In this document: piece by piece, positions 2,012 through 37,790 of the stretch
How the letters are laid out: each line of letters opens with the position of its first letter
How positions within the stretch are numbered: the stretch's first letter is position 1
NCBI GenBank assembly: GCA_014382605.1
Contig: JACNJM010000161.1
Coordinates: 12,812-52,697 of the forward strand
DNA: 39,886 nucleotides
Source of the DNA: Anaerolineae bacterium
Lineage (GTDB): Bacteria; Chloroflexota; Anaerolineae; Anaerolineales; UBA11858
Direction: 5' to 3'
Made by a program: the position numbers and the translations under genes
Notes under the pieces: generated by a model
What the model saw: only the letters and a program-made list of their open reading frames with translations
Databases searched by the model: none
What the model was told of the DNA's origin: nothing

Positions 2012-2062
2012 ACGAGCTTCTTGCGGCCTTGTGAATTGCGCTCACATCTTCAAGAAGCTCGT
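2012..2062. repeat. Inverted repeat / stem-loop, 11-bp perfect arms, 29-nt loop
   Basis: acgagcttctt (2012-2022) / aagaagctcgt (2052-2062); the loop contains TGTGA-N7-TCACA. Confidence 0.7.
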
Positions 2063-2119
2063 TTCTTAACCAATACATATATCCCCCCAACCACATTGGC
2101 TATACCGGGAGTATCGAAT

Positions 2120-16268: not shown

Positions 16269-16967
16269 TCAGGCGGTAATTTTTAGACGTAATTCTTCCA
16301 CTTTGGCAGCCAGTTTGCCCATGCGCACGCGATGCCAGAAGAGATCAACAAAGAGCACCGAGAAGGTGAACAAGCTAAAGAAAAACGCGGTTTTCATCGG
16401 GCCAGTCATACTGAAGGAGCCTTCGGCGCCGGGATCGCTATTGCCGACCACAACCGGGTGGATGGTGCGCAACATGCGAATGGAAATAAATGTCAGCGGG
16501 ACGCTGACGAAGCCCAAAACAGCGTAGACAGCCCCAAAACGGGCGCGGCGGTCGGGGTCATCGATGCCCTGACGCAGCATCATATAGGCAGCATAAATCA
16601 GTTCGACGATGGTTGCTGTGGTGAGGCGGGGATCCCAGGTCCACCAGGTATTCCAGATCGGGCGCGCCCAGATAGAACCCATGATAATAGCTATGAAGAA
16701 GAAGATCAGGCTAATTTCAATGGCAGCCAGCCCCATGATGTCGTATTTGCGCTCTCCTTTGATCAGATAAAACACACCCACAACGGCAGCCACTAAAAAT
16801 CCAAGCATGCCGACCCAAGCCGTCGCTACGTGGAAATAGAATACTTTTTGTACCGCGCCCATCGTGCGTTCCATCGGCGCATAGAAAAATACCAGAAATA
16901 CAGAAACAACGAAAAGGATTGCCGTAAGGGTATCCAAAATATTAAGCCAACGAGGTTTTTGTTCCAT
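16269..16967 (-). CDS. ccmC: Heme exporter/cytochrome c assembly protein CcmC
   Basis: 232 aa; AVQKVFYFHVATAWVGMLGF...GSIWARPIWNTWWTWDPRLTT (WWD domain). Confidence 0.9.
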   Translation of the reverse strand: MEQKPRWLNILDTLTAILFVVSVFLVFFYAPMERTMGAVQKVFYFHVATAWVGMLGFLVAAVVGVFYLIKGERKYDIMGLAAIEISLIFFFIAIIMGSIWARPIWNTWWTWDPRLTTATIVELIYAAYMMLRQGIDDPDRRARFGAVYAVLGFVSVPLTFISIRMLRTIHPVVVGNSDPGAEGSFSMTGPMKTAFFFSLFTFSVLFVDLFWHRVRMGKLAAKVEELRLKITA

Positions 16968-17005
16968 AAAAAGAATCTCCTATAACTTTAGCTGCTTGTA
17001 GTCAT

Positions 17006-17689
17006 CTATTCTTCAACTACGTAATCAAAAAACATAAAAGCAATGGCAATAAATATCACATCATACACAACCAGTAAATTCACCCAGGCTTGAATTTCTT
17101 CCCAGGCAAAATCTTGCAAAATGCCGCCGCTGGCCCTGACGGCTGCAATCAAAACAGGGACTACCAGCGGGAAGAGCAAAATGGGCAGCAGAATATCGCG
17201 CGTGCGCGCTTGCACCGCCATGGTGGAGAGTAACGTGCCCACAGCCACATAGCCAATCGAGCCGAGCAAAATAATCAGCAGCAACTCAGGGCGAAACAGA
17301 TTAATATTATATAGCACACTATAAACGGGCAGCACCACCAGTTCGACTACAAACATAAAAACCAGGTTGCCAATCGCTTTGCCGAAATAGATGGCGCTGC
17401 GATCTACCGGGGCGAGCAATAAACCATCGAGGCAACCGCGGTCTTTTTCGGTTGCCATCGAGCGATTGAGGCCCAGAGTTCCGGCGAAGGCAAATGTAAC
17501 CCACAGTACACCGGAGGTTACACTGGTGCGGGCGCGGGCATCCAGCTCGAGGGCAAAGTTAAAGATCAGGATCACCAGCAGGGCAAATACCAGCATGGCG
17601 GTAAAAAGTTCGCGGCTGCGCCATTCGGCGGTCAGGTCTTTGCGCACAACGGCGGTAAGGGCACGCAGGAAGTTTCGGAAATTGTTCAA
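17006..17689 (-). CDS. ccmB: Heme exporter permease CcmB
   Basis: KDLTAEWRSRELFTAMLVFALLVILIFNFALE...GVLWVTFAFAGTLGLNRSMATEKDRGCLDGLLLAPVDRSAIYFGK. Confidence 0.88.
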   Translation of the reverse strand: MNNFRNFLRALTAVVRKDLTAEWRSRELFTAMLVFALLVILIFNFALELDARARTSVTSGVLWVTFAFAGTLGLNRSMATEKDRGCLDGLLLAPVDRSAIYFGKAIGNLVFMFVVELVVLPVYSVLYNINLFRPELLLIILLGSIGYVAVGTLLSTMAVQARTRDILLPILLFPLVVPVLIAAVRASGGILQDFAWEEIQAWVNLLVVYDVIFIAIAFMFFDYVVEE

Positions 17690-18384
17690 TTTTTCAACGC
17701 TCCCCGATAAAAAGCCAATAGATCATTCGGGGCAACGCGGTCGCGCCCCGCCGAATCGACAATTTTGCCCTTCGAAAGTACATCAAAGCGCGAAGCCAGG
17801 TCGGCAGTGCGCGCCAGATCGTGGGATGTCATCACCACCGTGCGGCCTTTGGCGGCGACTTCACGCAGTACGCCATCGAGCATAATACAAGCGTCTTGAT
17901 CGAGGCCAGTATGCGGCTCATCGAAGAGCATCACTTCGGGGTCGTGGAGCACGGCGCGGCCAATCGCCAATCGCTGCTGCATGCCGCGCGAGAAGGTGCG
18001 CACCAGATCGCTGCGGCGGGGGTACAGGCCCACCATCTCCAATACTTCAGAGATGCGCTCATCCATATGAGCAACCGCATACATGCGCCCATAGAAGCGC
18101 AAATTCTCTTCGGCGGTTAGATCGCCATACAACAGCGGTTGGTGAGATACCACACCCAAACGGCGGCGCACTGCGGCAGCCTGATTGGGAAGTTGATAAC
18201 CGGCCACGCGCACTTCGCCCATTGCCGGGCGCGATAGCGAGGAGAGAATCCTTAAAAATGTGGTCTTGCCTGCGCCATTCGGCCCCAGCAAAGCCACAAA
18301 CTCGCCCGCGGCGACTTCAAAATCAAGGCCGCGCAACACGGTTTTTGGGCCAAAACGCTTGATGAGTTTTTTTACGGTAATCAT
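17686..18384 (-). CDS. ccmA: Heme exporter ATP-binding protein CcmA
   Basis: Walker A GPNGAGKTTFLR, signature SRGMQQRLAIGRA, Walker B VMLFDEP; overlaps ccmB start. Confidence 0.88.
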   Translation of the reverse strand: MITVKKLIKRFGPKTVLRGLDFEVAAGEFVALLGPNGAGKTTFLRILSSLSRPAMGEVRVAGYQLPNQAAAVRRRLGVVSHQPLLYGDLTAEENLRFYGRMYAVAHMDERISEVLEMVGLYPRRSDLVRTFSRGMQQRLAIGRAVLHDPEVMLFDEPHTGLDQDACIMLDGVLREVAAKGRTVVMTSHDLARTADLASRFDVLSKGKIVDSAGRDRVAPNDLLAFYRGALKN

Positions 18385-18452
18385 ATTTTGTGGGAAGCGG
18401 AGAGTAAGAAGCTGGGAGAATTTCATACATGCCACTTTCTGCTTCCTGCTTC

Positions 18453-20381
18453 TTAGCCCGTCACATCCTTCAAACGCGCTTTCAACTCAGATCGGCGACG
18501 GCGATAGGCATCTTCGCCGAGTTCGCCCGATTGATAAAGGTCATCCAGAGCGATAATCGCATCCATAAGCTCATCGGCGCTTTCTACCAGGGAGTCTTCG
18601 ATGCGTTCGGCATCATCATCGTACCAGTCGTCATCCGCTTCGTTCCGATTGCGCTGCCAGAGATACAGGCCAACGATCACAAAGGTAAGGCCAAATGCGG
18701 CCAAACCAATCACCAGATTCGTGTTCGAATCGGCGCCACCGGCAGCCAGCCATTCGGCGCTGGCATCGGGTATACCTGAAACAGTCATGCTAAGCGTCTC
18801 ACCGGCGCTCAAATTCTCGGCCGCATAAGTGCTGTAAGCAACGCCTTGCAAGTCGCGCGCGCCGGTATCGGTTAATTGATCGCCGCGCACCTTCACACCC
18901 TCTTGCGGCGCAATCACCAACGCGGCTCCGGTATCCAACGGAATCGGCAGCGTCAAATCCAGCTTCGCTTTTTTATAGGGCATATCAAAAGCAAACGTGA
19001 TTTCATAAGGCTCGGCAGAAGGGCGCACTGTGCCAATCCCCAGGCCGTTGTCCACAGCGGAATAACGCAGGCGCATACTTTCTTGCACATTTAGATTCGT
19101 CGCGCCCTCGGGCAGTTCAAAGATCATCAGGGGTTGTTCGGGGTCTGCCGATGAGATTGTTTGTCCGCTGGGATTGGAGAGCAACAGCAATTGAATGACC
19201 TGAATCGTATCTTCGGTAATAAATTCAAAGAAGATGTGCATCCGGTCGATCGCCAGCAGCGAAGAGTCGTGGCTGACATCAAAAATGGTCACATCTAATA
19301 AGACCTCGGTAGAATCGGCAGTTACCTGGGCCAGATTCGAGCCATAGACGACCCCATCGTATTCCACAGTTGCCAGATACACCCAGCCATCGTTCATGGG
19401 CATATCTTCAAAAAAAATAAACCCATCTTCAGGCAGTTCAGCGCTCTGCTTGTAGGCTTCTTGCATATTTTCATAGCCATACAGAATGACTTCTGCACCC
19501 GCGGGGATTTCGCCACCCGCGCCATGTGCCACAAGTACCTGAACAACGCCCGCACCAGCGGGTGCGGTTTCAGCGGATTCAACCGTGGGGGGTAATTCTG
19601 CCTCGGGGGTGGAATCACCAGCGGGGGCCGCGGTGGCCTGCTCCTGTTGAGGTAGAGTCTCGCCCTCGGGCTGGATAAAGGTCAAAAAGCGCAGATAATC
19701 TGCCAATATCCAGCGTTCATCCTCGCCAAGTTCAACACCAAAAGCAGGCATCTCGCCAGTACCATCACTGATCTTGGCGTAAAAATCGTGTGCTGAGCGT
19801 TCGCCCATAAAAGCCTGGTTAGTGAAATCGAGCGGCGATGTACTCAACTCGCTGCTCTTAGGGCCATCGCCCAGGCCGCTCTCGCCATGACAGGCGGCAC
19901 AATTTTCGGCGAAGAGCAGCGCGCCCTGAGCCAGTTGCGCGTCTGTCGCGCTCAACGAGTAAACATAGGCGATCACATCCCAACGCTGGGGCACCGAAAG
20001 GCTGTGGAAAGGCGGCATATAGCGATCGAGATTGCCGTTGGCAACCATCAAATACCAATCTGCGGGGTTGGACTGGCGCGCCAGTTCTACCGAGCCAATG
20101 GCAGGCACAGGGTTCGGGAGTTTGGCCGCGTCGGGGCCATCGCCCAGGCCTGTATTGCCGTGGCAAGGGGCACAGTTTTCAGTATAAAGCGCCGCGCCGC
20201 GCGCCGGATCGGGGGGTAGCACGGGGAAAACTGGCAATGCGGCCGTGGGCGTGGTCGGCGGCTGCGTGGGGGGCGGCTGGTAGCCCGGCGGAGGCGCAAT
20301 ATCTTCGGCGAAAGATATGCAGCCAGTGAGGGCGAGCGCTACAAAAATTAATAGGGATATGAGTTTTAGGCGTGGTTGCAT
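18453..20381 (-). CDS. Diheme c-type cytochrome lipoprotein with C-terminal TM and SHOCT-like tail
   Basis: Lipobox ALTGC; CAPCHGNTGLGDGP and CAACHGESGLGDGP domains; TM NLVIGLAAFGLTFVIVGLYLW; C-term DDLYQSGELGEDAYRRRRSELKARL. Confidence 0.8.
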   Translation of the reverse strand: MQPRLKLISLLIFVALALTGCISFAEDIAPPPGYQPPPTQPPTTPTAALPVFPVLPPDPARGAALYTENCAPCHGNTGLGDGPDAAKLPNPVPAIGSVELARQSNPADWYLMVANGNLDRYMPPFHSLSVPQRWDVIAYVYSLSATDAQLAQGALLFAENCAACHGESGLGDGPKSSELSTSPLDFTNQAFMGERSAHDFYAKISDGTGEMPAFGVELGEDERWILADYLRFLTFIQPEGETLPQQEQATAAPAGDSTPEAELPPTVESAETAPAGAGVVQVLVAHGAGGEIPAGAEVILYGYENMQEAYKQSAELPEDGFIFFEDMPMNDGWVYLATVEYDGVVYGSNLAQVTADSTEVLLDVTIFDVSHDSSLLAIDRMHIFFEFITEDTIQVIQLLLLSNPSGQTISSADPEQPLMIFELPEGATNLNVQESMRLRYSAVDNGLGIGTVRPSAEPYEITFAFDMPYKKAKLDLTLPIPLDTGAALVIAPQEGVKVRGDQLTDTGARDLQGVAYSTYAAENLSAGETLSMTVSGIPDASAEWLAAGGADSNTNLVIGLAAFGLTFVIVGLYLWQRNRNEADDDWYDDDAERIEDSLVESADELMDAIIALDDLYQSGELGEDAYRRRRSELKARLKDVTG

Positions 20382-20437
20382 AATTAGCGGTTACAAGTTG
20401 AAGGTTGAAGGTTGGCAGGTTTGTTGTGGGGTCGCTC

Positions 20438-20902
20438 TTACAAAGCCGCGCCACACTTGGGGCAAAAGCGGTCAGATTGCACGACAGCGCCACCGCATTG
20501 CGGGCAAAAGCCGCCCGATTTTTCCTGGCGGGCACGGCGACGGGTTGCGATCAGGGCTTCGAGTTCGTCGTCGGGTTGCACAGCATCTTCTACGCGGGCG
20601 CTAGCAGCATCAGAGGTTCGAACACCCTGGAGGGCATCCAGTTGCCGCAGAATATCGGCGCCGCGCTGTACAAGTTGTTCGCGGCGCATCGGGTAATCTT
20701 CGGCGGGGATTTTCCCCAGCGAGTTGTCAAAATCCAGTTCGGATAGGGCATTGAGTACGTGGTCGCGTTCAGCCATCAGCGTCGAGAGATCGTGCTCGAT
20801 CTGACTGACGGCGAAAGAGCGCCGCTCAAAAAGCGGTTTGGCGATATACAATGCCGTGAGGGTTACAAGGGCGAGAATAAAGAAAATTGAGCCAAGGTCC
20901 AT
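20438..20902 (-). CDS. CcmI-like N-terminal domain fused to zinc ribbon
   Basis: One TM; ALSELDFDNSLGKIPAEDYPMRREQLVQRGADILRQLD; C-term CPQCGGAVVQSDRFCPKCGAAL. Confidence 0.65.
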   Translation of the reverse strand: MDLGSIFFILALVTLTALYIAKPLFERRSFAVSQIEHDLSTLMAERDHVLNALSELDFDNSLGKIPAEDYPMRREQLVQRGADILRQLDALQGVRTSDAASARVEDAVQPDDELEALIATRRRARQEKSGGFCPQCGGAVVQSDRFCPKCGAAL

Positions 20903-20905
20903 AGG

Positions 20906-20947
20906 AGTTAGGGGGTAGGGAGTTAGGGGGTAGGAGTTATGAGTAAG
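20906..20947. repeat. Short tandem repeat ggagttagggggtag (x2 plus degenerate copy)
   Basis: ggagttagggggtag ggagttagggggtag gagttatgagtaagg; read directly. Confidence 0.7.
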
Positions 20948-21498
20948 GGGTCAATCATATTGATGATTTCTTGCTGGGATGTAAATGAGCCAATTTGTAT
21001 CTGTGCAATCTGGCCTTCCCGGTCGATAAAGAAGGTCGTGGGCAATGAATTCACCCGATAAGCATTTGAAATCGTGTCATCCCAATCCGGGATATTTGGG
21101 AAGGTGATTTTGTATTCTTGTAAAAAAGCCAGGGCATTATTTTTACTATCGCTCTGGATTGTATTGATGCCAATAAAGATCACTTCGCCGCTTGTTCGGT
21201 ACCGGTCAAAAGTTGCCTGCAAATCGGGGGCTTCCATAGCGCAGGGGCCGCACCACGAGGCCCAAAAGTTGAGTACCACAACTTTGCCCCGATATTCCGC
21301 CAGATGAATGGAATTGCCGCCAAATGTGGTCATGCGGAAATCGGGCGCGGCCTGGCTGGTGTTGCCAAATTCCAGTGGGTTTTTGAGCAGCGCATTCATC
21401 CCGATAAAAGACAGCGCCATAATCAGCAGACATCCGGCCACGAAGATTACGATCCAAGTCGTTGTAGACTTTTTATTGGGTGAATTTTGTTCGGTCAT
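20923..21498 (-). CDS. TlpA/ResA/CcmG-like thioredoxin-fold protein
   Basis: N-terminal TM; VVLNFWASWCGPCAMEAPDLQATF; SLPTTFFIDREGQIAQIQIG. Confidence 0.85.
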   Translation of the reverse strand: MTEQNSPNKKSTTTWIVIFVAGCLLIMALSFIGMNALLKNPLEFGNTSQAAPDFRMTTFGGNSIHLAEYRGKVVVLNFWASWCGPCAMEAPDLQATFDRYRTSGEVIFIGINTIQSDSKNNALAFLQEYKITFPNIPDWDDTISNAYRVNSLPTTFFIDREGQIAQIQIGSFTSQQEIINMIDPLLITPTP

Positions 21499-21581
21499 TA
21501 TGTGAATTCAGAAAAGCCATCCCCACCCCATTCTTCTCCAAATTTGGGAGAGGGCAAGGCGGGGGAAGATGATGGTTTAAT

Positions 21582-22157
21582 TTACGGCTGCAACAAGGGA
21601 TCAATCACCGATTTAATCTGCGCCAGGGATGTAAACGGGCCAATCTGAACATGGCTAAGTATACCCTCCTGGTCGATAATATAGGTTTCAGGTACGCCGC
21701 GGATGCGGAAGGCCTGCGAGATGCGCGTCCCCAGGTCGGGGCCGTTGGGATAGCTGATATTGAATTTGGTCAGGTAACCCAGCGCTTCGGGTTCGGTATC
21801 CACATAATCGACACCCAGAAAGATCACATCGCCGCGGTCTTTGTATTCGAGCCAGGCCAGTTCGAGATCGGCGGCTTCTTGTTCGCAAGGTTTACACCAG
21901 GAAGCCCAAAAATTGAGTACGATTACTTTGCCCGCATAGTTCGCTGAGTTGAATATTTCACCATCGAAACTGGTAAGCACAAATTCGGGCGCGGCCTGCC
22001 CGGGCTGAACAGGGCCTTCTTGCGTGCGTTTCAGCCCCACGGCGAGAATTCCCATGAGAATCAGCAAGCCTCCCCAAATCAGCAAGCGGCCCCACTTTGG
22101 GCCCGAATTCTCCGTAGGGGTTTCACCATCCAAGATTTTATGGGTATCTTCAATCAT
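21582..22157 (-). CDS. TlpA/ResA/CcmG-like thioredoxin-fold protein (paralogue)
   Basis: IVLNFWASWCKPCEQEAADLELAW; RGVPETYIIDQEGILSHVQIG; tandem paralogue of 20923..21498. Confidence 0.85.
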   Translation of the reverse strand: MIEDTHKILDGETPTENSGPKWGRLLIWGGLLILMGILAVGLKRTQEGPVQPGQAAPEFVLTSFDGEIFNSANYAGKVIVLNFWASWCKPCEQEAADLELAWLEYKDRGDVIFLGVDYVDTEPEALGYLTKFNISYPNGPDLGTRISQAFRIRGVPETYIIDQEGILSHVQIGPFTSLAQIKSVIDPLLQP

Positions 22158-22170
22158 TTAATTCTCCATC

Positions 22171-22683
22171 CTACCAATCACTACCGCGCAATTCATCTTC
22201 CAAACGCGCCACATAATCGTCTGTAATTGCTGTTTCTGCGGGAAGCGGGGCGGTTTCCGGTTCAATTTGCCGCCAGCTTTGAATGCCACGAAAAAGGACA
22301 TACGCGCCGATAATAAAGGCTACCGGCGGCACAAGATAGACCAGCCAATTGAAGCCCGTGCGGGGCGGTTCCGCCAGCACACGATCACCATATTGGTCTA
22401 CAAAATACTGCTTGATCTCGTTTTCTGTCCAACCCTGGCTGAGTTTTTCGCCAATCAGGGCACGCCACTGGGCACAGGCCTGTGTGCCGCAAACATCCAG
22501 GGGCACATTCTCGCACACCGGGCAGAACATCTCGCTGGCAATGGCATTAATATCATCATCGGTTGGCGTGTCGGGGTTGGCATCCTGAGCCAGCGCCGTC
22601 ATCGGCAGGGCCAGTATCGCCAAAACCAGGACGAGAAGGATGAATGGTGAATGGTAAAGGATGAAGGATGAATGTTTTTTCAT
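22171..22683 (-). CDS. ccmH: Cytochrome c biogenesis protein CcmH
   Basis: EMFCPVCENVPLDVCGTQACAQWRALIGEKLSQGWTENEIKQYFVDQYGDRVLAEPP; signal peptide and C-terminal TM. Confidence 0.85.
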   Translation of the reverse strand: MKKHSSFILYHSPFILLVLVLAILALPMTALAQDANPDTPTDDDINAIASEMFCPVCENVPLDVCGTQACAQWRALIGEKLSQGWTENEIKQYFVDQYGDRVLAEPPRTGFNWLVYLVPPVAFIIGAYVLFRGIQSWRQIEPETAPLPAETAITDDYVARLEDELRGSDW

Positions 22684-22700
22684 AATTTCTCTCGGTCTGT

Positions 22701-22735
22701 TTTTTTCGGCCTCGAAGCGAAAGAGGCCGAAAAAA
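22701..22735 (-). terminator. Hairpin (possible attenuator/terminator) between ccmF and ccmH
   Basis: ttttttcggcctc-gaagcgaaa-gaggccgaaaaaa, 13-bp arms. Confidence 0.55.
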
Positions 22736-22770
22736 GGGTATGCGTGGGGTGAGCCTGAGCAGTTATTTTT

Positions 22771-24825
22771 TTAATCTACTACCGCAGCAACCCGTTGTCG
22801 CGAGCGTTTTGTGACAAGCGAATTTTCTTTCTCCGGCCAGGCAGATATCAGCGTGCCGATCACAAAGACCCACGAACCGAGCCACATCCACTTAACCAGC
22901 GGATTATGATAGACCTTGAAAGTGGCGTTGTTGGTACTGATCTCTTCCCAATCGACCAGGAGCACATAAAAATCATCGGCAAGCGTGCTGCGCACTCCGG
23001 GGATGGTCATGGGCTGCTGGGAATCGTAGAAGAAATCGCGGCGGGGGTATAACTCGCCCACCGGTTCGCCATCTTTGTATACACTCACCACGGCACGCGC
23101 CACGTTGCGAGCATCGGGAGCATCAAACACCGCCAGTTCTTCGTAGACCATATCGTAGCGACCCAGCGTCAGCGATTCGCCCACGCTAAGCGTTCCCTGG
23201 GTTTCGGTCTGGAACATTTCAATGCCCACAATGCCAATTGCCAGCATCGCCATGCTGATATGCACCAGATAGCCGCCATAGCGCCGCGGGTCACGGCGAG
23301 TCAAATTCAGAAACGCTATCACAAGATTGCCTTCGTGGCGCTTACGACGGGCGAAAATTCCGCGCCCATACTCGTAGAGCGTTACAGCAATCACCAGCGA
23401 AGCCAGGAAAATACCGATCAGGGCATAGATATTGTGAATACCAGCCACAATCACAGCCACCAGCACAACCAATGCCGCAACGGCGGGTTTCCACAGTGCG
23501 CGGCCCAACGTCTGCCAGGTTGAGCGCCCCCAGGCGGAAAGCGGAGCGATTGTCATCAGCAAGAGCAGCCCAGCCATCAGTGGGCCGTTGGCACGCTCGT
23601 AGAAGGGCGGACCAACGGTCACCTTCTGGCCGGTGAACAACTCGGAGATCAGCGGGAAAATCACGCCCCAAAAACAAACCACCAGAATACCCAGGAAGAG
23701 CAAATTATTAAGCAAGAACAAAGCTTCACGCGAAAGCATCGATGTCATCTGCGTTTTCGATTTGAGTACATTCCAGCGCTGCATAAGCAAGGATAACGAG
23801 GCCGTGAAGGTGATCCCGATAAAGGCGAAGAACAGCGGTCCGATGGCGCTCTGCGCGAAGGCATGGACGGACGAGAGCACCCCGGAGCGGGTGAGGAACG
23901 TCCCGAAGATGACCAATGCATAGGTGAGAATAATCAGCACCATATTCCATTGCTTCAACATGCCGCGCTTCTCCTGGATCATCACCGAGTGCAAAAACGC
24001 CGTTCCGGTAAGCCAGGGCATAAAGGCGGCGATCTCCACCGGGTCCCAGCCCCAATAGCCACCCCAGCCCAGCACGTCGTAGGCCCAGCGTCCGCCCAAC
24101 ACCAACCCCAACGAGAGAAACATCCAAGCCCACAACGTCCAGCGGCGGGTCAGACGAATCCAGCGGTCGTCGGTGCGTCCGGTGATCAGGGCGGCCATTG
24201 CAAAGGCGTAGGGGATTACGAAGGATACAAATCCCAAGTAAAGCATGGGAGGGTGAATAATCATACCCGGATGCCGCAGCAAAGGGTTAAGGCCGCGGCC
24301 ATCGGTGGGGAAGTATAAAGAACTGCCCGCGGGCTGCAACATTTTCTCGATCACCTGCCCACTGGGCAAGGCCCATAAACGCGTAAAGGGATTTTCAACA
24401 AAGATATTCAAAGCCAGGAAGAAAGCCAGCGTCACCAGGGAGACCACAATTACCCAGGGCAAAAATTCGCGGTCACGGTCCCACTTGCGCAGCGTCACCG
24501 CCGAGGCAAATGCCGACATCAGCCAAGACCAGAACACCAACGAGCCAGCCTGTCCGCCCCACAGCGCGGTAACTTTGAGATACATGGGCATACTGCGGCT
24601 GGTTACGCTGGCGACATATTCAACTTCAAAATGGTTGGTGGCCAACAAATAAATAATGCTCAACGCTGAGAGTGTGAGCAGTGGGAAGGTGAGCAGCATG
24701 GCATTGCGGGCGCTATCCACAAGTGCGGGTCTGTTTTTCCGCAAACCGAGCAACGCCGCGCCAATGCCATACAGCGAAACCAGTAATGTAAGAACTAATG
24801 CACTGTATCCAATATTTGCGATCAT
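22771..24825 (-). CDS. ccmF: Heme lyase CcmF
   Basis: 684 aa; TALWGGQAGSLVFWSWLMS, HPPMLYLGFVSFVIPYAFA, GGYWGWDPVEIAAFMPWLTGTAFLHSVM (WWD), RRDPRRYGGYLVHISMA. Confidence 0.93.
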   Translation of the reverse strand: MIANIGYSALVLTLLVSLYGIGAALLGLRKNRPALVDSARNAMLLTFPLLTLSALSIIYLLATNHFEVEYVASVTSRSMPMYLKVTALWGGQAGSLVFWSWLMSAFASAVTLRKWDRDREFLPWVIVVSLVTLAFFLALNIFVENPFTRLWALPSGQVIEKMLQPAGSSLYFPTDGRGLNPLLRHPGMIIHPPMLYLGFVSFVIPYAFAMAALITGRTDDRWIRLTRRWTLWAWMFLSLGLVLGGRWAYDVLGWGGYWGWDPVEIAAFMPWLTGTAFLHSVMIQEKRGMLKQWNMVLIILTYALVIFGTFLTRSGVLSSVHAFAQSAIGPLFFAFIGITFTASLSLLMQRWNVLKSKTQMTSMLSREALFLLNNLLFLGILVVCFWGVIFPLISELFTGQKVTVGPPFYERANGPLMAGLLLLMTIAPLSAWGRSTWQTLGRALWKPAVAALVVLVAVIVAGIHNIYALIGIFLASLVIAVTLYEYGRGIFARRKRHEGNLVIAFLNLTRRDPRRYGGYLVHISMAMLAIGIVGIEMFQTETQGTLSVGESLTLGRYDMVYEELAVFDAPDARNVARAVVSVYKDGEPVGELYPRRDFFYDSQQPMTIPGVRSTLADDFYVLLVDWEEISTNNATFKVYHNPLVKWMWLGSWVFVIGTLISAWPEKENSLVTKRSRQRVAAVVD

Positions 24826-24901
24826 AAAAACTCCATGGTGAGAAATAGGCGCTTAGGCAATTGGGCAGTCAGGAAATTCCCAACCCCCAATTGCCGAATT
24901 C

Positions 24902-25417
24902 CTAATTGTCTGATGCCTGCTCTGGAACGGCTTCTTCGTATTTTGTAGGGCATTTGAGCAAAAGCTCATCGGCAAGGAAGGTTCCATCACCCTGCAATCG
25001 CCCGGTCATAATGGCCTGGGCTTCGTTTTGCAATAAATCAGGAATCGGCCCTTCGTAGACAACCGTGATACGGGAACGCGTTGGATCCATAACCGCAGCA
25101 TTCAGCGCCGCGGCCAAACCACCCTCGGCCTCGAGTTCGTCGTTATCGCCCGCAACGTGAGCAACATCAAAGGTCAGGATGAGATTTTTGCTGTCATATT
25201 CGATACTATCGCCGATCACAGCGCCGGAAATGCGTAAATCGCGGTCGGCAACTTCGTCGGCCCGGGCGACTAATTCATCGATGGTGAGGAAATATTGCGC
25301 GCTGGCCTGTGTCGATGATACGATGAGATAAATCACCGCGGCGACAATCATGGCACCCCCCATGATAAATTTCATACGGTTGCGTGAACCGGTTTGTGTA
25401 ATAGTTGTTTCTTCCAT
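24902..25417 (-). CDS. ccmE: Cytochrome c maturation heme chaperone CcmE, Cys-type
   Basis: RITVVYEGPIPDLLQNEAQAIMTGRLQGDGTFLADELLLKCPTKYEE; CXXXY where the canonical protein has HDENY. Confidence 0.85.
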   Translation of the reverse strand: MEETTITQTGSRNRMKFIMGGAMIVAAVIYLIVSSTQASAQYFLTIDELVARADEVADRDLRISGAVIGDSIEYDSKNLILTFDVAHVAGDNDELEAEGGLAAALNAAVMDPTRSRITVVYEGPIPDLLQNEAQAIMTGRLQGDGTFLADELLLKCPTKYEEAVPEQASDN

Positions 25418-27063: not shown

Positions 27064-27104
27064 CTTGTTCGTGCCATCTGGCAACTATGAAGTAGAGGTT
27101 TACT

Positions 27105-28866: not shown

Positions 28867-30993
28867 TTAGGGGCGTGTCATACCGGCAACATCGCCGCCT
28901 ATGCTCTGGATACTATCATACAGAAGTTGCATGATGTAGCTAGCATTGTGGGCGAATCCACCCGGATCCTTCAGGGCATACTGGTAGTTGTAGGCAGCCT
29001 GGGTCAGTTTGGGCGTCCAGGTTGCGTAGCGGTCACCCGTATCGGTGAAGAAGTAGGGGTAGGCGTGGCTATCGTAAACGATAGGAGCGGTATCAGCATT
29101 GCCTTCGGCGTACGCCTGAATGGCAACGTAAAGCGCTTCGGCCATGGTTTCGATCTCGCCAGCAACGCCTTCTTCGATGTCGCCGTCGCCGTCATAATCC
29201 ACGGCAACTTCAACTTCGGGGTTGCGGATACCAGCCAGATCGGCCTGGGTTTCTACACCGGCGTGGCAAACGCCACATTCGTCGGTCTTGACTTCCAGCG
29301 TATGCGCGCCGTGGCAGTCTGTACAAGACTGGAAGGTGTCGGCATGTTCAAAGAAGCCAACATATTCCTTGCCGTCGTACTCGTAGCCGCCCTTTGCATC
29401 TGTACCAAAGCGGGTTGCGCCCGCTGCAAAGTAGTGAACATTGGTGAAGCCCAGGCCCTCTACTACGGTATCGGGGGCTGCACCGGCGATCTTGGCATTC
29501 ACCGTGTTTGTGGAAGCGCGGCCCTGGTGGCAGCTCATGCACAAACCGGAGGTATCTTCAAGAGCAACCTTCGCTCCACTGGGGAAGGTTACTTCGCTAA
29601 CACCGTAGATGGTGTACTCAGCCAAGTCGTTGTGGCAGGTGGTGCATTCAAAACCATTGGAAGGTGTCGTGGTAATGTTGACGCCTTCGGTCAGGAAGAG
29701 GGGCAGGCCATCTGCCGAGTGGCAGCGGGCACAGCTCGACGAAACGGTGCCATCTTCGTCCCAATGACGGAACGCTTCTTCGGAACCAGCAAAGTGGCCG
29801 TGGTCAATGCGATGCAGGCCAGCAACCGCTTCGGGGTTCAGGTCTTCAATCGAGTCGTAGAGCAGCTCGATGATGTACTTGCCGCCGTGGGCGAATCCAC
29901 CCGTATCCTTGAGGGAAACCTGGTAGTTATAGGCCGCTTTCACGAGGCGGGCGGTCCAGGCATTATACTTATTGCCGTAGTTGGCTTCGCCTTCAGTGAC
30001 CTCGCCATTGGCATCGGTATCAATAAAGAAGTAAGGGTACGTATGAGAATCGTATACCAACGGAACGCCAGCCACATCGGCGGCGTAAGCCTGCACGGCC
30101 GAATACAGCGCGGCCTGCATACCTTCGATCTCGCCCTTGATGCCTTCCTCCATGTCGCCATCACCGTCAAAATCTACCAAGGAGCCTTTCATGCGAACAT
30201 TGGCGAAATCTTCAACAGCGGCAACATCGGTGTGGCAAACCTGGCAGTCATCAACTTTAACTTCCAGGGTATGCGGATCGTGGCACTCAATACAGGTATC
30301 GAATTCGCCTACGTGAGCGAAATTGCCATCGTAGGTTTTGCCATCGTACTGGTAACCACCCATTGCCAGGGTGCCATATTTGGTAGCGGCAGCGGCAAAG
30401 TAGTGGATATTGATGAAGCCCAAATCTTCGCTAACGGTATCAACATCTTCAACCAGGCCCAGCTCTTCAAACTTGGCATTCACCGAAACGGTGGAAGCGC
30501 GGCCCTGGTGACATTCCATACAACGAGCCTCGTCGCCCAGTCCCAGCAATTCAACGCCCGAGGGCATCACAACGCTGGTTTTGTCGCCGGTGGCGGTGTT
30601 GTGGCAAGCCACACATTGAATACCCATATTCTCGGCAGCGGGTAACTCAAACACATTGGCGCCGGTCTCCAGGAACTCAACATAACCTTCGGAGCTATGG
30701 CACTTGGCACAAGCCGTGGCAACCACAGCAGGATCGTCCTCATCCCAATGGCGGAATGCCTCAGCAGCAGAGTCAGCATGGGGGGAGCCGGCCCACTCTT
30801 CTGCAAAAGGAACATCACTCACCAAAGGTTCAGGGCAAGCTTCGGGTTCAGGACATTCCGGGCAATCTGCCTCGGGGCAATCCGCAGCCGCGGGTTCAGC
30901 AGGGCTTTCTGGCGCTTCAGGTGCAGAGGCGCAACTCGCCAATGCTAATCCGAGGATAAGCGCCAAAATAACAAACAAAATTTTCTTATGCAT
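28867..30993 (-). CDS. Decaheme c-type cytochrome lipoprotein, two tandem pentaheme modules
   Basis: Start at MHKKILFVILALILGLALASC (AAGGAG RBS). CAKCH, CVACH, CMECH, CIECH, CQVCH then CARCH, CTTCH, CMSCH, CTDCH, CGVCH. Confidence 0.88.
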   Translation of the reverse strand: MHKKILFVILALILGLALASCASAPEAPESPAEPAAADCPEADCPECPEPEACPEPLVSDVPFAEEWAGSPHADSAAEAFRHWDEDDPAVVATACAKCHSSEGYVEFLETGANVFELPAAENMGIQCVACHNTATGDKTSVVMPSGVELLGLGDEARCMECHQGRASTVSVNAKFEELGLVEDVDTVSEDLGFINIHYFAAAATKYGTLAMGGYQYDGKTYDGNFAHVGEFDTCIECHDPHTLEVKVDDCQVCHTDVAAVEDFANVRMKGSLVDFDGDGDMEEGIKGEIEGMQAALYSAVQAYAADVAGVPLVYDSHTYPYFFIDTDANGEVTEGEANYGNKYNAWTARLVKAAYNYQVSLKDTGGFAHGGKYIIELLYDSIEDLNPEAVAGLHRIDHGHFAGSEEAFRHWDEDGTVSSSCARCHSADGLPLFLTEGVNITTTPSNGFECTTCHNDLAEYTIYGVSEVTFPSGAKVALEDTSGLCMSCHQGRASTNTVNAKIAGAAPDTVVEGLGFTNVHYFAAGATRFGTDAKGGYEYDGKEYVGFFEHADTFQSCTDCHGAHTLEVKTDECGVCHAGVETQADLAGIRNPEVEVAVDYDGDGDIEEGVAGEIETMAEALYVAIQAYAEGNADTAPIVYDSHAYPYFFTDTGDRYATWTPKLTQAAYNYQYALKDPGGFAHNASYIMQLLYDSIQSIGGDVAGMTRP

Positions 30994-31187
30994 TACAACA
31001 TTCTCCTTCATCGTTGTGCAGTTCAATAAATATGCATGCACTTACTCAATATTTGGTACCGTATGGGCTGCCATTTTAGGCGACCAACGGTAAATTCTCA
31101 AAGGTCTGATCTCGGCAGGCACCACCTCCTTTGCAAATCCAGCATTCTTCTCCTGTAAAACTCATGTTTTGCGTTGTTCGCAACCGA

Positions 31188-31526
31188 CTAACTGAGCAAA
31201 TCCAGTAAATCGCGCACTTCATCCAACTGGCTCTGCTGGCTACGAATAACCTGCACAGGTCTTTCGTCTACAGACAGGCGGATAATCGTAATCTCGCGAA
31301 TAGCGGATAACAAAGCACATAATAAACAACGCCGATTCCAGTCCACTTCCGACGAGTTCAATACCACTGCCGATGGCTGGAGTTTTACAATCTGTTCAAT
31401 ATATTCTTGTTCTTGTGGATCAATGAAGTGAAACGCCACTCGCTCGGGGAATTGCTCAAAACGGCTGGCAACACCCTGGGAGAATAACGAATGTTTTGAC
31501 AGAATTACTACTTGCTTACGCATCAC
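31188..31526 (-). CDS. Degenerate receiver-like protein (no HTH)
   Basis: 112 aa; QVVILSKHSLFSQGVASRF aligns with the NarL receiver N-terminus but the acidic pair is SK and the phospho-Asp region reads AVVLNSSEVD. Confidence 0.55.
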   Translation of the reverse strand: MMRKQVVILSKHSLFSQGVASRFEQFPERVAFHFIDPQEQEYIEQIVKLQPSAVVLNSSEVDWNRRCLLCALLSAIREITIIRLSVDERPVQVIRSQQSQLDEVRDLLDLLS

Positions 31527-31758: not shown

Positions 31759-31828
31759 TCACGCAAAGGCGCCAAGTCGCCAAGAAATAAGAGAGAAAAC
31801 AGCTTTGCGGCTCTGCGTCTTTGCGTGA
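31759..31828. repeat. Imperfect palindromic intergenic repeat
   Basis: tcacgcaaag (31759-31768) ... ctttgcgtga (31819-31828) with cgcaaaggcgccaag / gctctgcgtctttgcg imperfect arms. Confidence 0.6.
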
Positions 31829-31950: not shown

Positions 31951-32592
31951 CTAACTGCCTCTACGGATAATCCCCTTGCTAATGGCGTAAGTTACTGCCT
32001 CGGTACGATTTTTTGCCCCTAATTTCTGCAAGATATTGCGCAAATGATATTTCACTGTATTCTCGCTAATAAAGAGAGCGCTGGCAATATCGCGATTGGC
32101 CATGCCATCCCCTACTTTTTCGAGCACTTCCAATTCGCGATCGGTGAGTTCGTTCGCATCACCCATCGTTTGCTGTGCCATTTTTTGAAATCGATTCATC
32201 AAACGTGCCGCCGTTTTGCGGGTAATCGCTGCATCGCCGCGCTCGACACCTTGCAACATTTCAATAAAATCCTGAGCCTGCAAATCTTTCAGCAAATATC
32301 CATCCGCGCCGCGCTCTATGGCCGCGAAAAGATCACGATCATCATTGGATACAGTCAGGATCACCACGCTGATCTCCGGGAACTCGGCCTTAATCCTGTC
32401 GAGGGCTTCCAGGCCGCCCATCTCGGGCATATCAATATCAAGCAAAACCAGATCAGGCTGTAGCTGGCGCGTGGCTTCCAGCGCTGTGTGGCCATCGCCA
32501 ACCTGAGCCACCACCTGATACCCGGCAGCTTCCAGCAAACTGGTGATGCCATCTCGAAATAAAGAATGATCGTCGGCGACTAAAACTCGCAT
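31951..32592 (-). CDS. NarL/FixJ-type (LuxR HTH) response regulator
   Basis: MRVLVADDHSLFRDGITSLLEAAGYQVV...LVLLDIDMPEMGG; LTDRELEVLEKVGDGMANRDIASALFISENTVKYHLRNILQKLGAKNRTEA. Confidence 0.92.
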   Translation of the reverse strand: MRVLVADDHSLFRDGITSLLEAAGYQVVAQVGDGHTALEATRQLQPDLVLLDIDMPEMGGLEALDRIKAEFPEISVVILTVSNDDRDLFAAIERGADGYLLKDLQAQDFIEMLQGVERGDAAITRKTAARLMNRFQKMAQQTMGDANELTDRELEVLEKVGDGMANRDIASALFISENTVKYHLRNILQKLGAKNRTEAVTYAISKGIIRRGS

Positions 32593-32594
32593 GG

Positions 32595-34082
32595 TTACGT
32601 TCCGTTTTTGGGGCGCGGCATTTGCAAAAGAATCCGAGCGCCCTCACCTGGGGCAGATACAACCGTTAACACCGCCTGAATAGATTTGGCGCGCTCTTGC
32701 ATCGTAGCCAGGCCAAATTGTTGGCTATCCATCTGTTTCTGAACCTCAAAACCGCAGCCATCATCCCGAATTTCAAGCAAAATCTGTTCGGGCTGGCAAT
32801 CCAAAATCACCCAGACACTCTCCGCATGGGCGTGTTTGCGGATATTCGAGAGCGCCTCTTGCACAATGCGCAGCAGGTGCAGCACAACTTCCGGATGCAA
32901 AACACCTTCACAATTCGCAACCAGTTCAAGTTGCACAGGCAAGTCGCTCAAAAGGTTGAAACGCGCCACATACTCACGCAACGCAGCCGGAAGGTCAGCA
33001 TCGACGCCGCCCGCCACCCTCAAGCCCAATATAGCATCACGCACATCCACCGAAACGCCGCGAGCGGCTTCTTCTAACTGAAGCAAATGCTGTTCAGCCG
33101 CACCTATTTTTCCTTGCTGAAGCATCAAGCGAACCGCTACAGCCTTCGTGTTCACATAGCCCAAAACTTGCGCGATGCCATCGTGCAATTCGCGCGCAAT
33201 GCGTTCGCGCTCTTCGACAATGGCACGCTGGCGCAGTTTGCTGCGCTCATCTTGCGCGCGGGTGTAATCTTCAATATCCTCAGCCATCTGATTGAAAGTA
33301 TCGGCGAGTTGGCATATTTCATCTGCCATTTGAGAATCTTTAATAATGCGCGTCGAATACTCGCCCGCGGCATAGGCAGCAATCGGTTCACGGAACGCTT
33401 CGATGCGCCGTACAACCAGATGACTGACGAGGGCATAAACCCCAATCGCGAACAGGCCAGTGAGTACAAATACCAGCCCCAGGCTCAAACCCAAATGATT
33501 AAGCAATGTTTGGCGCAATTCTTCCAGCGAAATATCAATCATCAACACCCCCATGTGATGCGCATCCTCTTCCGAACAATCCGGGCAGTCTAGCGGGATA
33601 ATGATCGGCGTAGATACCCGAAAAGTATATTCACTATTTTTAAGATCAATCGTACGGGGGCGCGCTTCCGGCGGATATTGGTGACAAACCCAACACTCCG
33701 GAGCATTTTGGTCCAATGCCATATACCGCGCAATGCCGTGTTCGCCCGATTTCAAAACTGTTCCATCGCTGCTAACAATTTGAATCTCGCGCACATTTTC
33801 CATCTGGCTCACATCAGCAAGAATAGTGAGCATGTGTTCATCATCACCAGTTTCAAAAGCGTGGGCGATGCTGCTTTCGAGAGCATCACCCAATTGAATA
33901 GCCGCCAGGCGCGCATATTCATCGAGATGTTGAATTTCGCGCCAGTAATATAACCCACTCAGCATCAGCAGAATCACAAAAACCGGCAGCGCAATTCCCA
34001 AAGCTACCCGCGCCCGCAAACTGGTGCGAACAGCCGGGTATTGGCGCTGGAATGCGGAAAATGCTTGTCGCAGGCGAGTCAT
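32595..34082 (-). CDS. NarX-type sensor histidine kinase with periplasmic CXXCH (candidate heme c sensor)
   Basis: TM-periplasmic domain-TM-HAMP-HisKA_3 (RERIARELHDGIAQVLGYV)-HATPase; periplasmic PECWVCHQYPPE and DCPDCSEEDAHH. Confidence 0.9.
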   Translation of the reverse strand: MTRLRQAFSAFQRQYPAVRTSLRARVALGIALPVFVILLMLSGLYYWREIQHLDEYARLAAIQLGDALESSIAHAFETGDDEHMLTILADVSQMENVREIQIVSSDGTVLKSGEHGIARYMALDQNAPECWVCHQYPPEARPRTIDLKNSEYTFRVSTPIIIPLDCPDCSEEDAHHMGVLMIDISLEELRQTLLNHLGLSLGLVFVLTGLFAIGVYALVSHLVVRRIEAFREPIAAYAAGEYSTRIIKDSQMADEICQLADTFNQMAEDIEDYTRAQDERSKLRQRAIVEERERIARELHDGIAQVLGYVNTKAVAVRLMLQQGKIGAAEQHLLQLEEAARGVSVDVRDAILGLRVAGGVDADLPAALREYVARFNLLSDLPVQLELVANCEGVLHPEVVLHLLRIVQEALSNIRKHAHAESVWVILDCQPEQILLEIRDDGCGFEVQKQMDSQQFGLATMQERAKSIQAVLTVVSAPGEGARILLQMPRPKNGT

Positions 34083-34091
34083 CGAACCGAT

Positions 34092-35003
34092 TCAGGAACG
34101 CAACCGCTCACCACAAGCGCGACAGAAGCGATCAGTCCCCGAGGCGCGTTTACCGCATTGATGACAGTAAGCGGACTCGCCCGAAGCTGGCGCGCCCCCA
34201 CCAGCGGGGTTTCTACGCCCGCGGCCGGTCGGCCTTGAACTGGGTGCGTTTTTTTGCCCGGATTGCCAATACCACACGATGCCGCCCACCACCAAAAGCA
34301 CACCGGCGGCGCCCAGCAGCCAGGGCAGCAGATTCATGAAGTTGATATCCTGCAACCCCCCGGGGTTATTGATCGGCTCGCTGGCCTGCACCGGGAAACT
34401 CTCTACGCTGAGGGTGTCATCGCTCTTCTGATAATCCACCTTCACGCTGACAGTATCGCCCGCTTTTGGCGCGCCAATTTCCATAATATAGTAATTCAGC
34501 CCGTCTGAACCCGGCTGAAATTCGCCCAGGCTCGGCTCAATGCCCATGTCGCTGGCGCGTACCGGCTGCTGCACCAAGATTACCATCTCATCAACTGCGT
34601 AATCGGCATTCCAGGTGAATTCGTAATGGCGGGCAGTATCAACTTTTTCGAGTTGGGGATCATAATACTCCAACTGTAAATCGATGGCTGTCGCCGTCAC
34701 CGTAATATATGCCCACTGCCCTTCTACCCGCAGATCGTATACGGCGTTAAGCAAAGCGCCATCGGGCTGGCGCGAGGCGACCGCGTTAGGATCACCCACC
34801 GCAGCAGGAATGCGAAAAGTCACGTCTACGGGCAGGGTCACTTCAGGGGCTAATTGCGCCCGCAAGATGACCAACATCTCTGAGCGGTCATATTCGGGCC
34901 ACAGATCTACCTGTAAATAAGCCAGGCGAACAGTGTCTTGCGCCTGAACGCCGAAGGGAATTAGCAAAACCAACAATACAGCAAAAATCAAGCATCGTTT
35001 CAT
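34092..35003 (-). CDS. Secreted/membrane-anchored protein with C-terminal zinc ribbon
   Basis: Signal peptide, TM LLPWLLGAAGVLLVVGGIVWYW, C-term YCHQCGKRASGTDRFCRACGERL. Confidence 0.6.
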   Translation of the reverse strand: MKRCLIFAVLLVLLIPFGVQAQDTVRLAYLQVDLWPEYDRSEMLVILRAQLAPEVTLPVDVTFRIPAAVGDPNAVASRQPDGALLNAVYDLRVEGQWAYITVTATAIDLQLEYYDPQLEKVDTARHYEFTWNADYAVDEMVILVQQPVRASDMGIEPSLGEFQPGSDGLNYYIMEIGAPKAGDTVSVKVDYQKSDDTLSVESFPVQASEPINNPGGLQDINFMNLLPWLLGAAGVLLVVGGIVWYWQSGQKNAPSSRPTGRGRRNPAGGGAPASGESAYCHQCGKRASGTDRFCRACGERLRS

Positions 35004-35168: not shown

Positions 35169-35969
35169 TCACCCGATGGCAACGCGCAGATGTTGGGCAA
35201 GCGCGCCGAAATGCGGCGTGTAGCGCAAACTTTCTTCCCGCGGGCGTGGCAGGTCGACACTCACATCCAAGCGGATAGTTGCGGGGCGCGGCCCCAGCAC
35301 CAGCACCCGGTCGGCCAGGTATACCGCTTCGTCAATCGCATGAGTCACCATAATAATCGTTTTGCGCTCCATCCGGCTCCCGTTGCGCGCATTTCCGCGA
35401 GCGTCAATTGCAATGCGCAGCAATTCAGCTCCCATCTGTTCGCGCGTCAGCGCATCCAGCGCGCCAAAGGGTTCATCCAGCAGCAGTACATCGGGATCAT
35501 GCACCAGGGCGCGCGCAATCGCCACACGCTGCGCCATCCCCCCTGAAAGATCGCGCGGCAGCCAATCGGCAAAGCCTTGCAGGCCTACCAATTCAATCAA
35601 TTCATGAACCCGGGGCGCAATTTCGCTATCCGGCGCGCCCTGCAATTCCAGGGGCAGGGCAATATTGGCAAATACGGTGCGCCAGGGCATCAGATTGGCA
35701 TTTTGGAAAACAAAGCCCACCCCACGGCGCGGCCCTTGCAACGCTTCGCCGCGAAACAACACTTCGCCATCCGTGGGAGCCAGCAATCCACCCAAAACGC
35801 GCAGCAATGTGCTTTTGCCACATCCCGAAGGGCCAAGCACACCCACAAATTCCTGGCGCTCCACCGTAAAAGAGAGCGGATTCAAAACTTGCAGGTCACC
35901 GTTCGCATCTGAAAAAGTGACCTGCAAGTCTTTCACCGAGAGAATCGGCTCATTCTTCGACAAAGTCAT
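35169..35969 (-). CDS. ABC transporter ATP-binding protein (probable riboflavin/flavin uptake)
   Basis: Walker A GPSGCGKSTLLR, LSGGMAQRVAIARAL, DVLLLDEPFGALDALTR (SsuB/TauB class); third gene of the FMN-riboswitch operon. Confidence 0.85.
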   Translation of the reverse strand: MTLSKNEPILSVKDLQVTFSDANGDLQVLNPLSFTVERQEFVGVLGPSGCGKSTLLRVLGGLLAPTDGEVLFRGEALQGPRRGVGFVFQNANLMPWRTVFANIALPLELQGAPDSEIAPRVHELIELVGLQGFADWLPRDLSGGMAQRVAIARALVHDPDVLLLDEPFGALDALTREQMGAELLRIAIDARGNARNGSRMERKTIIMVTHAIDEAVYLADRVLVLGPRPATIRLDVSVDLPRPREESLRYTPHFGALAQHLRVAIG

Positions 35970-36945
35970 TGGTAAAAGCGGATTCCAAATCCAGCGGCGC
36001 GTCAATCAACTGCATATCCAGCAGTACCGCTTGCATATTTTCCCAGGCCTGAAGATCAGAATAGCCAATGGGTTCACGCTGATAGAGCGCAATAGATGCG
36101 CGTAGAATGTCGAGTTGTACGTGAATGTCGGCATCTTCAAGACCATCGACATATTTTTTGGCAATCTCATAGGCATCTTCGGGGTGTGCTATCGTGTAAC
36201 GTATCCCGCTGAGGGTGGCTTGCACCATACCGCGTACCAATTCCGGATTGTTGGCAATAGTGGTTTCATTGGTCAATAATCCGTTAGAGACCAGGTGCGC
36301 ATAATCGGCCACGGCAATTACATCCACATCGTAGCCCTGTGCCTGCAACTGAATCGGCTCGTTGGCAATATAGCCCACCACAGCGTCTTCTTGCCCGGCG
36401 ACCAGGGCTTCTACCTGATTGAAGCCAATCGAGTCAAGAGTCAGGTCGCTCTCCTGCAATCCGGCGGTAGCCAACAACGCCCGCAAGCCAATATAGTTGG
36501 CCCCAAATGGCCCCGGCAACCCAACGCGTTTTCCGGCGAGGTCTGCCGGTTCGGTGATGCCATCTTCGGTCATGGCAACCACCGCCACGGGGTAGTCGCC
36601 GTACCAGGCCATTGTATACACAACCGGCAACCCTTGATTGCGCGCCATCAGCACCTGTTCCCCGGAAACAACGGAAAACTGAACTTCATCCGCGCCAACC
36701 AGGGCAACCCCATCGGTCTCGAAACTATAATCAAACTCAATTTCGATACCCGCTTTCTCGTAGAAGCCCAATTCGACGGCCACATAAAAGGGCGTGTACT
36801 GCACATTGGGAATATAGCCCATCGGCAGACGGATGTGCGCTAGCTCCTGTGAGGTGGGCGCGACCTGCTCCGGGGCTGGCGCGGCCTGACAGGCGGTGAG
36901 CATCAGCCCGAGGATGAGTGTGATTGAAAGAGCGATCTTTTTCAT
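35950..36945 (-). CDS. ribY: ABC transporter substrate-binding lipoprotein, NMT1/THI5-like (RibY-type)
   Basis: Lipobox LMLTAC; GYIPNVQYTPFYVAVELGFYEKAGIEIEFDYSFETDGVALV; in FMN-riboswitch operon. Confidence 0.78.
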   Translation of the reverse strand: MKKIALSITLILGLMLTACQAAPAPEQVAPTSQELAHIRLPMGYIPNVQYTPFYVAVELGFYEKAGIEIEFDYSFETDGVALVGADEVQFSVVSGEQVLMARNQGLPVVYTMAWYGDYPVAVVAMTEDGITEPADLAGKRVGLPGPFGANYIGLRALLATAGLQESDLTLDSIGFNQVEALVAGQEDAVVGYIANEPIQLQAQGYDVDVIAVADYAHLVSNGLLTNETTIANNPELVRGMVQATLSGIRYTIAHPEDAYEIAKKYVDGLEDADIHVQLDILRASIALYQREPIGYSDLQAWENMQAVLLDMQLIDAPLDLESAFTNDFVEE

Positions 36946-37019
36946 ATGAAGTTCTCCTGTTTTAATTTTTGACCGAAGACGGAAGACCGGAGACTGGGCG
37001 TTCGGTCATCGGTCTCCCG

Positions 37020-37790
37020 TCATCCGTCTTTTGTTTCACGTCGCTGCCAGGCCAACAGATGGTTTTCTAAAGCCACGACCAGCCCATACAGCGCCAGCGC
37101 CAGCGCAACTAATACAAAAACAGCTACAAATACCAGGGCGGTATCATACATGCCGCGCCCTACATTGATGAGAAATCCCAACCCGCGATCCGCGCCCACA
37201 AATTCACCCACCACCGCGCCGATCACCGCCAATGTTGCGCCCACGCGCAGCCCACCCAGAAATACGGGCATTGCAGCGGGAACTTCCAGGTGGCGCAATA
37301 TTTGCCAGCGCGTGGCCTGGAGTGAGCGCATCAGGGCGTATAAATCTTCGGGGACGGCGCGCACCCCAACGATCGTGTTGATCAACACTGGAAAGAAAAC
37401 AATCAGCGCGGCGATAAGCACCTTCGAGAGCAGTCCCGGCCCCAGCCAGATTACAAGCAGCGGGGCAACCGCAACCATCGGCACCGACTGACTGGCAACA
37501 ATATACGGGGCCAGAAATCGCTCGACCGGGCGCGATTTCGCCAGTAGATAACCTGTCAGCGTGGCAAGAATTAACCCTAACGACAAACCCAGCAATACTT
37601 CAAACAGGGTCACTCCCAAATGACGCAACAGGCTGCCATCTTCCAGGATTTGCATAAAGCGGCGCGCTACATTCCCCGGCGATGGCAGCACAAAAGCCGG
37701 TAAGTCAGCTGTCCACACGATCAACTGCCAAAGCAGCAACATCCCGAGCAGCGAAACGATCACAAAAATGACGCGCTGTGTATCTTTCAT
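37020..37790 (-). CDS. ribX: ABC transporter permease (RibX-type)
   Basis: BPD permease signature GGLRVGATLAVIGAVVGEFVGADRGLGFLI; first gene downstream of FMN riboswitch. Confidence 0.8.
   Translation of the reverse strand: MKDTQRVIFVIVSLLGMLLLWQLIVWTADLPAFVLPSPGNVARRFMQILEDGSLLRHLGVTLFEVLLGLSLGLILATLTGYLLAKSRPVERFLAPYIVASQSVPMVAVAPLLVIWLGPGLLSKVLIAALIVFFPVLINTIVGVRAVPEDLYALMRSLQATRWQILRHLEVPAAMPVFLGGLRVGATLAVIGAVVGEFVGADRGLGFLINVGRGMYDTALVFVAVFVLVALALALYGLVVALENHLLAWQRRETKDG

Follow-up and report, generated by a model that had tools for sequence, protein, structure and literature searches.

A predicted one-heme sensor histidine kinase, probably derived from a two-heme ancestor, beside multiheme cytochrome genes in the Anaerolineae

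Heme-c sensors have mostly been studied through a single canonical heme, and the locus described here raises the question of which heme a sensor kinase uses when that site is degenerate and an additional motif is intact. The window analysed, a stretch of 39,886 nucleotides in contig 275 of an Anaerolineae assembly (339 contigs, 3.66 Mb), encodes a sensor histidine kinase of 495 aa with an ATG start (32595..34082, minus strand), exactly where an earlier note on this DNA had placed it. The open reading frame list and domain searches gave the segment order TM1, extracytoplasmic heme domain, TM2, HAMP (residues 218-271), HisKA_3 (291-355) and HATPase_c (401-491). Hydrophobic segments were located by hydropathy at about residues 20-48 and 192-225. 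The sensor domain between them, probably Cache-like from an AF2 model and Foldseek matches, covers by hydropathy about residues 47-197 (33492..33944, minus strand). Both PECWVCHQYPPE and DCPDCSEEDAHH, previously described as lying between two TM helices, were found between these segments. The DCPDCSEEDAHH stretch, however, is no heme motif in this protein, as the position of the His is occupied by Ser. The domain contains one intact heme c motif, CWVCH, at residues 130-134 (33681..33695, minus strand), and one degenerate motif, CPDCS, at residues 166-170 (33573..33587, minus strand), in which both Cys are retained.

Conservation of these motifs was determined in a homologue set drawn from 81 relatives and 301 genomes of the window's order, which gave 58 sequences covering the whole sensor motif region. 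Kinases of this family occur throughout the order, with matches at E <= 1e-6 in 49/301 genomes; the search profile consisted of two-motif members plus two members of the window's clade, and other motif states are perhaps under-sampled. Almost nothing was gained outside the order by a phylum-wide profile search. Scanning genome contigs with the full kinase gave no confirmed relatives, the corresponding profile scan gave three named kinase loci from Chloroflexi/Anaerolineales MAGs, and a plasmid search gave one Rhodobacter kinase carrying the canonical motif only. The first motif (window residues 130-134) was CXXCH in 58/58 homologues across the order, with variable x residues. The earlier note had named CXXCH conservation in orthologues as a point on which its heme proposal could fall, and the proposal therefore stands in this respect. 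The second motif had both Cys in 58/58 homologues; its His was present in 55/58. The three sequences lacking the His, with CPDCS in the window and CSDCS and CIGCT in two other genomes (G004 and G005), all belong to the window's genus.

The real evidence for CWVCH as a putative heme site is this conservation across 58/58 homologues, not the motif in one sequence. CXXCH arose by chance in 0.37% of shuffles of the window kinase, so a lone motif is no proof, and this leaves room for a reading in which CWVCH is not a heme site, its Cys forming a disulfide or binding a metal, or the sensor gene decaying. Such a reading is highly improbable given the 58/58 conservation across the order, the homology to proven heme-c sensors, the Ccm genes nearby and dN/dS values well below 1 (both described below).

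Comparison with structurally characterised sensors identified the degenerate motif as the canonical one. Searched against the PDB, the family profile matched GSU0935 (3b42, E 6e-6) and GSU0582 (3b47, E 3.5e-5). The Geobacter heme motif aligned with the second motif of the family, not with CWVCH, and 3b47 has no Cys at the CWVCH place. The canonical position of sCache_heme domains, before the last strand, holds CPDCS in the window kinase and CXXCH in 55/58 relatives. An AF2 model of the sensor domain (four sequences) was of low-to-moderate confidence (pLDDT 70, pTM 0.49); its best PDB matches in Foldseek were the Cache sensors WalK, CitA and DctB, with GSU0935 (probability 0.93) and GSU0582 (0.82) below them.

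The axial ligands in GSU0582/GSU0935 are the motif His (His143/144) and Met60, the latter acting as ligand in GSU0935 and, when the proteins are reduced, in both (PMC8396549). Since residue 109 of the 3b47 chain is His143, chain residue 26 is Met60. This Met aligns with window residue 76, a position occupied by Met in 51/58 homologues and by Phe in all three His-less ones. At the canonical ligand positions the window kinase thus has Ser170 and Phe76 (33855..33857, minus strand) instead of His and Met. The canonical heme site is thereby left without either axial ligand, the motif His being changed to Ser/Thr and the Met60 position to Phe. In the remaining homologues 31 columns reach at least 80% conservation, and the His-less three deviate together at just four of these: Met to Phe at 76, Gly to Arg at 119 (beside a one-residue insertion), Asn to Ile/Val at 162 and His to Ser/Thr at 170. 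Column 162 is the conserved Asn of the PIxNxPxCxxCH block, present in 53/58 homologues and replaced by Ile in the window kinase (33597..33599, minus strand). At the level of sequence, these alignments indicate that the canonical-site ligands were lost in concert while the additional heme motif stayed intact. Two two-motif relatives of the window's clade (L087 and L093) have Leu at the axial Met position and an intact canonical CXXCH, and possibly represent an intermediate state toward loss of the canonical site.

In the tree, the three-member His-less clade (100/100) fell within a clade of seven (100/99), the rest of which carry both motifs, so that one loss of the canonical site is the simplest reading. 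The ancestral domain having two motifs, and CPDCS being the degenerate form of the family's canonical heme site, the window kinase is most likely a heme-site-shifted derivative. The His-less clade is known from three sequences (3 species) only, 78-85% identical. Within it, dN/dS was 0.07-0.15 for the extracytoplasmic domain and 0.09-0.16 for the gene as a whole, which argues for a kinase gene in use under purifying selection. Gene degeneration was also considered and was ruled out by these ratios.

The Cys pair remaining at the former heme site might itself be the sensor, working as a thiol-disulfide or metal switch, with the remaining heme structural or acting as an electron relay. The CXXC is kept in 3/3 sequences while its neighbours vary, and purifying selection continues. 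However, two Cys kept in three sequences of such identity are weak evidence, and the metal-site signature is incomplete across the three, His175 being absent in G005. We consider a CXXC sensor quite unlikely, and regard the retention of both Cys in three sequences as suggestive, not conclusive.

CXXCH is the recognition motif of the Ccm system, and System I attachment needs its His; CXXCK requires a dedicated NrfE-type lyase (NrfEFG). The window does contain the previously reported ccm locus, a System I cluster (16269..25417, minus strand). This included CcmC (16269-16967), CcmB (17006-17689) and an adjoining CcmA-like ABC ATPase (17686-18435), two thioredoxin-like proteins (20923-21498 and 21582-22157), CcmH (22171-22683), CcmF (22771-24825) and CcmE (24902-25417). 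From this cluster and the CXXCH kept in 58/58 homologues, we infer a covalent heme c in the extracytoplasmic domain of the kinase. CcmF-type lyases number one per genome in the window's clade, and a search of these genomes for another lyase dedicated to CPDCS gave none. This bears on whether two hemes are still present, CPDCS being attached by its two Cys with another residue, e.g. His176, as ligand. Both Cys of the CPDCS site are retained in 3/3 clade species, as is His176, which is also kept in most close relatives. Set against this are the need of System I for the CXXCH His, and of CXXCK for a NrfE-type lyase, in genomes with one CcmF-type lyase each, and the loss of the distal Met and Asn162 together with the His. 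A two-heme kinase is therefore very unlikely.

The genes downstream of the kinase point to what it may control. Its stop codon is followed 2 bases later by the start codon of a NarL-type response regulator (31951..32592, minus strand), with a receiver carrying Asp52 (Response_reg, E 8e-30) and a GerE/LuxR HTH (GerE, E 2.5e-22), in agreement with the NarL-like regulator claimed for this position. The match to the NarL equivalog was 177 bits, not reaching the cut-off of 250. Response-regulator-sized genes lie directly downstream of the kinase in 46/50 loci (those with that gene in the fetched stretch). The third gene of the locus (31188..31526, minus strand) encodes a 112-aa protein with no match in Pfam and PHROG searches that aligned with the regulators' receiver domains in hhalign (97%, E 6e-11). 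The residues of the acidic pocket are missing, and at the phosphoacceptor position the window protein has Asn, its counterparts Asp or Glu. Because it is receiver-like yet has no acidic pocket and an altered phosphoacceptor position, we designate it a pseudo-receiver; AF2 of this protein alone was uninformative (pLDDT 44). The family is present in 27/43 loci with enough downstream sequence. The near-identical pseudo-receiver of G004 was examined as an oddity and dismissed as ordinary conservation, since the DNA of the locus is about 90-93% identical throughout.

Regulator and pseudo-receiver are separated by 424 bp, and this gap contains an inverted repeat, CACGCAAAGGCGCCAA...TCTGCGTCTTTGCGTG (window 31760-31827). 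Genome-wide, the CACGCAAAGGCGCCAA/TCTGCGTCTTTGCGTG half-site is found about 60 times versus 2 for the reversed control, often paired about 53 bp apart, and the repeat is a dispersed small palindromic element. Scans for promoters and terminators gave results at chance level.

Next in order is a decaheme c-type cytochrome of 724 aa (28867..31041, minus strand), with a lipoprotein-like N terminus, 10 CXXCH motifs and a Cytochrome_C7 match, which bears out the claim of a multiheme cytochrome near the kinase; a PDB search with this protein gave no match. By adjacency, it is a likely target gene of the regulator. The usual gene order in the loci is kinase, NarL-type regulator, pseudo-receiver and multiheme cytochrome, the last occurring downstream of the kinase in 27/43 loci with enough downstream sequence. 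Within ~16-kb stretches, multiheme ORFs were found at 25/28 heme-kinase loci compared with 1/20 controls (Fisher, p 2e-9), the controls being 20 stretches around other HisKA_3 kinases from the same group of genomes. The central proposal of the earlier note, a heme-c sensor kinase beside multiheme cytochromes, thus gains from this enrichment, from the 58/58 conservation of CXXCH and from Ccm in the window, but it had missed the second heme site. Neighbours at several loci, read from sequence, included a Rieske protein, cytochrome b with multi-c cytochromes, NapC-type cytochromes and a molybdopterin oxidoreductase. As the conserved neighbours are electron-transport genes, the control target is most likely respiratory electron transport, and control of extracellular electron transfer is possible.

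Rieske/cytochrome b complexes also adjoin some two-heme kinases (families f5 and f14). At one locus (L079, genome G442) such a complex takes up the four gene positions (-1 to -4) preceding the kinase, and its b subunit carries many fused c-type heme domains (7 CXXCH, 700 aa). Other parts of the window were also annotated. Two adjacent multiheme cytochromes (25750-28802, plus strand) lie on the strand opposite to the kinase, one with 8 CXXCH and a lipoprotein-type signal followed by a collagen-like GPxGPxG stretch, the other NapC/NirT-type with 7 CXXCH. Upstream of the kinase are a zinc-ribbon membrane protein (34092-35003) and then an NMT1/THI5-type ABC transporter comprising ATPase, binding protein and permease (35169-37790, minus strand). 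Towards the start of the window, a reductive dehalogenase-like Fe-S protein (2021-3808, plus strand; TIGR02486, E 6e-60, above cut-off) is accompanied by a Crp/Fnr-type regulator (341-1066).

Redox is the most likely signal for the kinase, followed by NO. A gas sensor would be switched by NO (or CO) at an open heme coordination site. GSU0582/0935 bind CO and NO (PMC8396549), and a membrane-bound signalling member of sCache_heme has NO-sensor properties and releases NO slowly (PMC12889525), so redox sensing is not the sole reading. However, these NO/CO properties are those of the canonical heme, which is missing in the window kinase, and NO-detoxification genes were not identified beside the locus, where the conserved neighbours are electron-transport genes. 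Gas sensing is, on these grounds, somewhat unlikely.

The reading we favour, with a probability of roughly 60%, is that of a one-heme sensor kinase from a two-heme ancestor, signalling through the CWVCH heme to the NarL-type regulator and the cytochromes. Kinase architecture, conserved CXXCH, gene order and enrichment near cytochromes can be read directly from the sequences. The protein would be a membrane sensor kinase, presumably dimeric, with one covalent heme c in its extracytoplasmic Cache domain, put on CWVCH (residues 130-134) by the Ccm system. Its ancestor would have been a two-heme sensor, in which a GSU0582/GSU0935-type heme had the second CXXCH's His and a first-helix Met as ligands. 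The window's clade would then have lost the canonical heme through the changes of His to Ser/Thr, Met to Phe and Asn162 to Ile/Val, the second heme probably being absent from the window kinase. Signalling would rest on the additional heme, the surviving CXXC perhaps forming a disulfide or metal site. A redox or ligand change at the heme may be relayed via TM2 and HAMP to the transmitter, HisKA_3, and this would phosphorylate the adjacent NarL-type regulator and so control the neighbouring multiheme respiratory cytochromes, the target genes suggested by adjacency; the small pseudo-receiver probably tunes the relay. More tentative, and on the doubtful side, is a fuller version in which the lineage gave up the heme with which its ancestors sensed and now uses the additional one for signalling, the old pocket became a thiol/metal site, and the pseudo-receiver completes a three-component respiratory switch.

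The kinase probably tells the cell when to make the neighbouring electron-transport cytochromes. Regulators of the respiratory or extracellular electron transfer chains of uncultured Anaerolineae were not described in the literature searched, and the order-wide link to multiheme cytochrome operons offers a testable route to respiratory regulation in these organisms, possibly extending to their extracellular electron transfer chains. The His-less clade is in effect a natural experiment, with the canonical heme apparently removed and the other kept, and can therefore help to assign a signal to each heme of two-heme sensors.

In comparison to known systems, the kinase resembles NarX/NarQ-NarL in its HisKA_3 transmitter and REC-GerE regulator, for which the best NCBIfam names are NarQ and NarL. 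NCBIfam NarX/NarQ matches begin at residues 274-281, scoring 119 bits (residues 281-492) against a cut-off of 553, and are confined to residues 274-492; the sensor domain is unrelated to that of NarX/NarQ. The earlier label of a NarX-type kinase thus fits the transmitter, but not the sensor, a probable Cache-type heme domain akin to that of GSU0582/GSU0935. With the sCache_heme/DUF3365/Tll0287-like family (PF11845), the kinase shares a predicted Cache-type extracytoplasmic domain, a c-type heme motif and fused signalling outputs (PMC12889525). PF11845 gave no match to the window kinase at E <= 0.1, and matched 7/10 family members weakly and sub-threshold (best E 7.5e-4). The PF11845 members identified in Chloroflexota carry a single CXXCH, towards the end of the domain. 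According to a 2026 preprint, sCache_heme is rare or absent in Chloroflexota, and the term "diheme" does not occur in that text (PMC12889525).

Closest are GSU0582/GSU0935 of Geobacter sulfurreducens (3b47 and 3b42; PF21563), which share the homologous extracytoplasmic domain (E 3.5e-5 and 6e-6), the PIxNxxxCxxCHxxxxxxxGxLL block and, with most of the family, the N-terminal helix bearing Met60. They differ in having a single heme, located where the window kinase has its degenerate site (CPDCS, Phe76), in being without the CWVCH insert, and in driving chemotaxis instead of a kinase. Heme-c sensor kinases, some with two motifs, are already known in Geobacter and Anaeromyxobacter. Geobacter, in which heme-c sensor domains occur in both kinases and chemoreceptors, has twelve heme-c transducers, two of which (GSU0591 and GSU0599) carry two motifs (PMC8396549); Adeh_2011 and Adeh_3383 are also two-motif transducers (PMC3831638, PMC8396549). 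These four have an additional CXXCH in a GSU0582-like sensor, as do 55/58 homologues here, whereas the window kinase has the additional motif only and one CXXCH. Published loss of the canonical heme motif with the additional one kept was not found in the literature searched. Judged by their motifs, related sensors occur in three states: canonical heme only, both, and, in the window's clade, the additional heme only.
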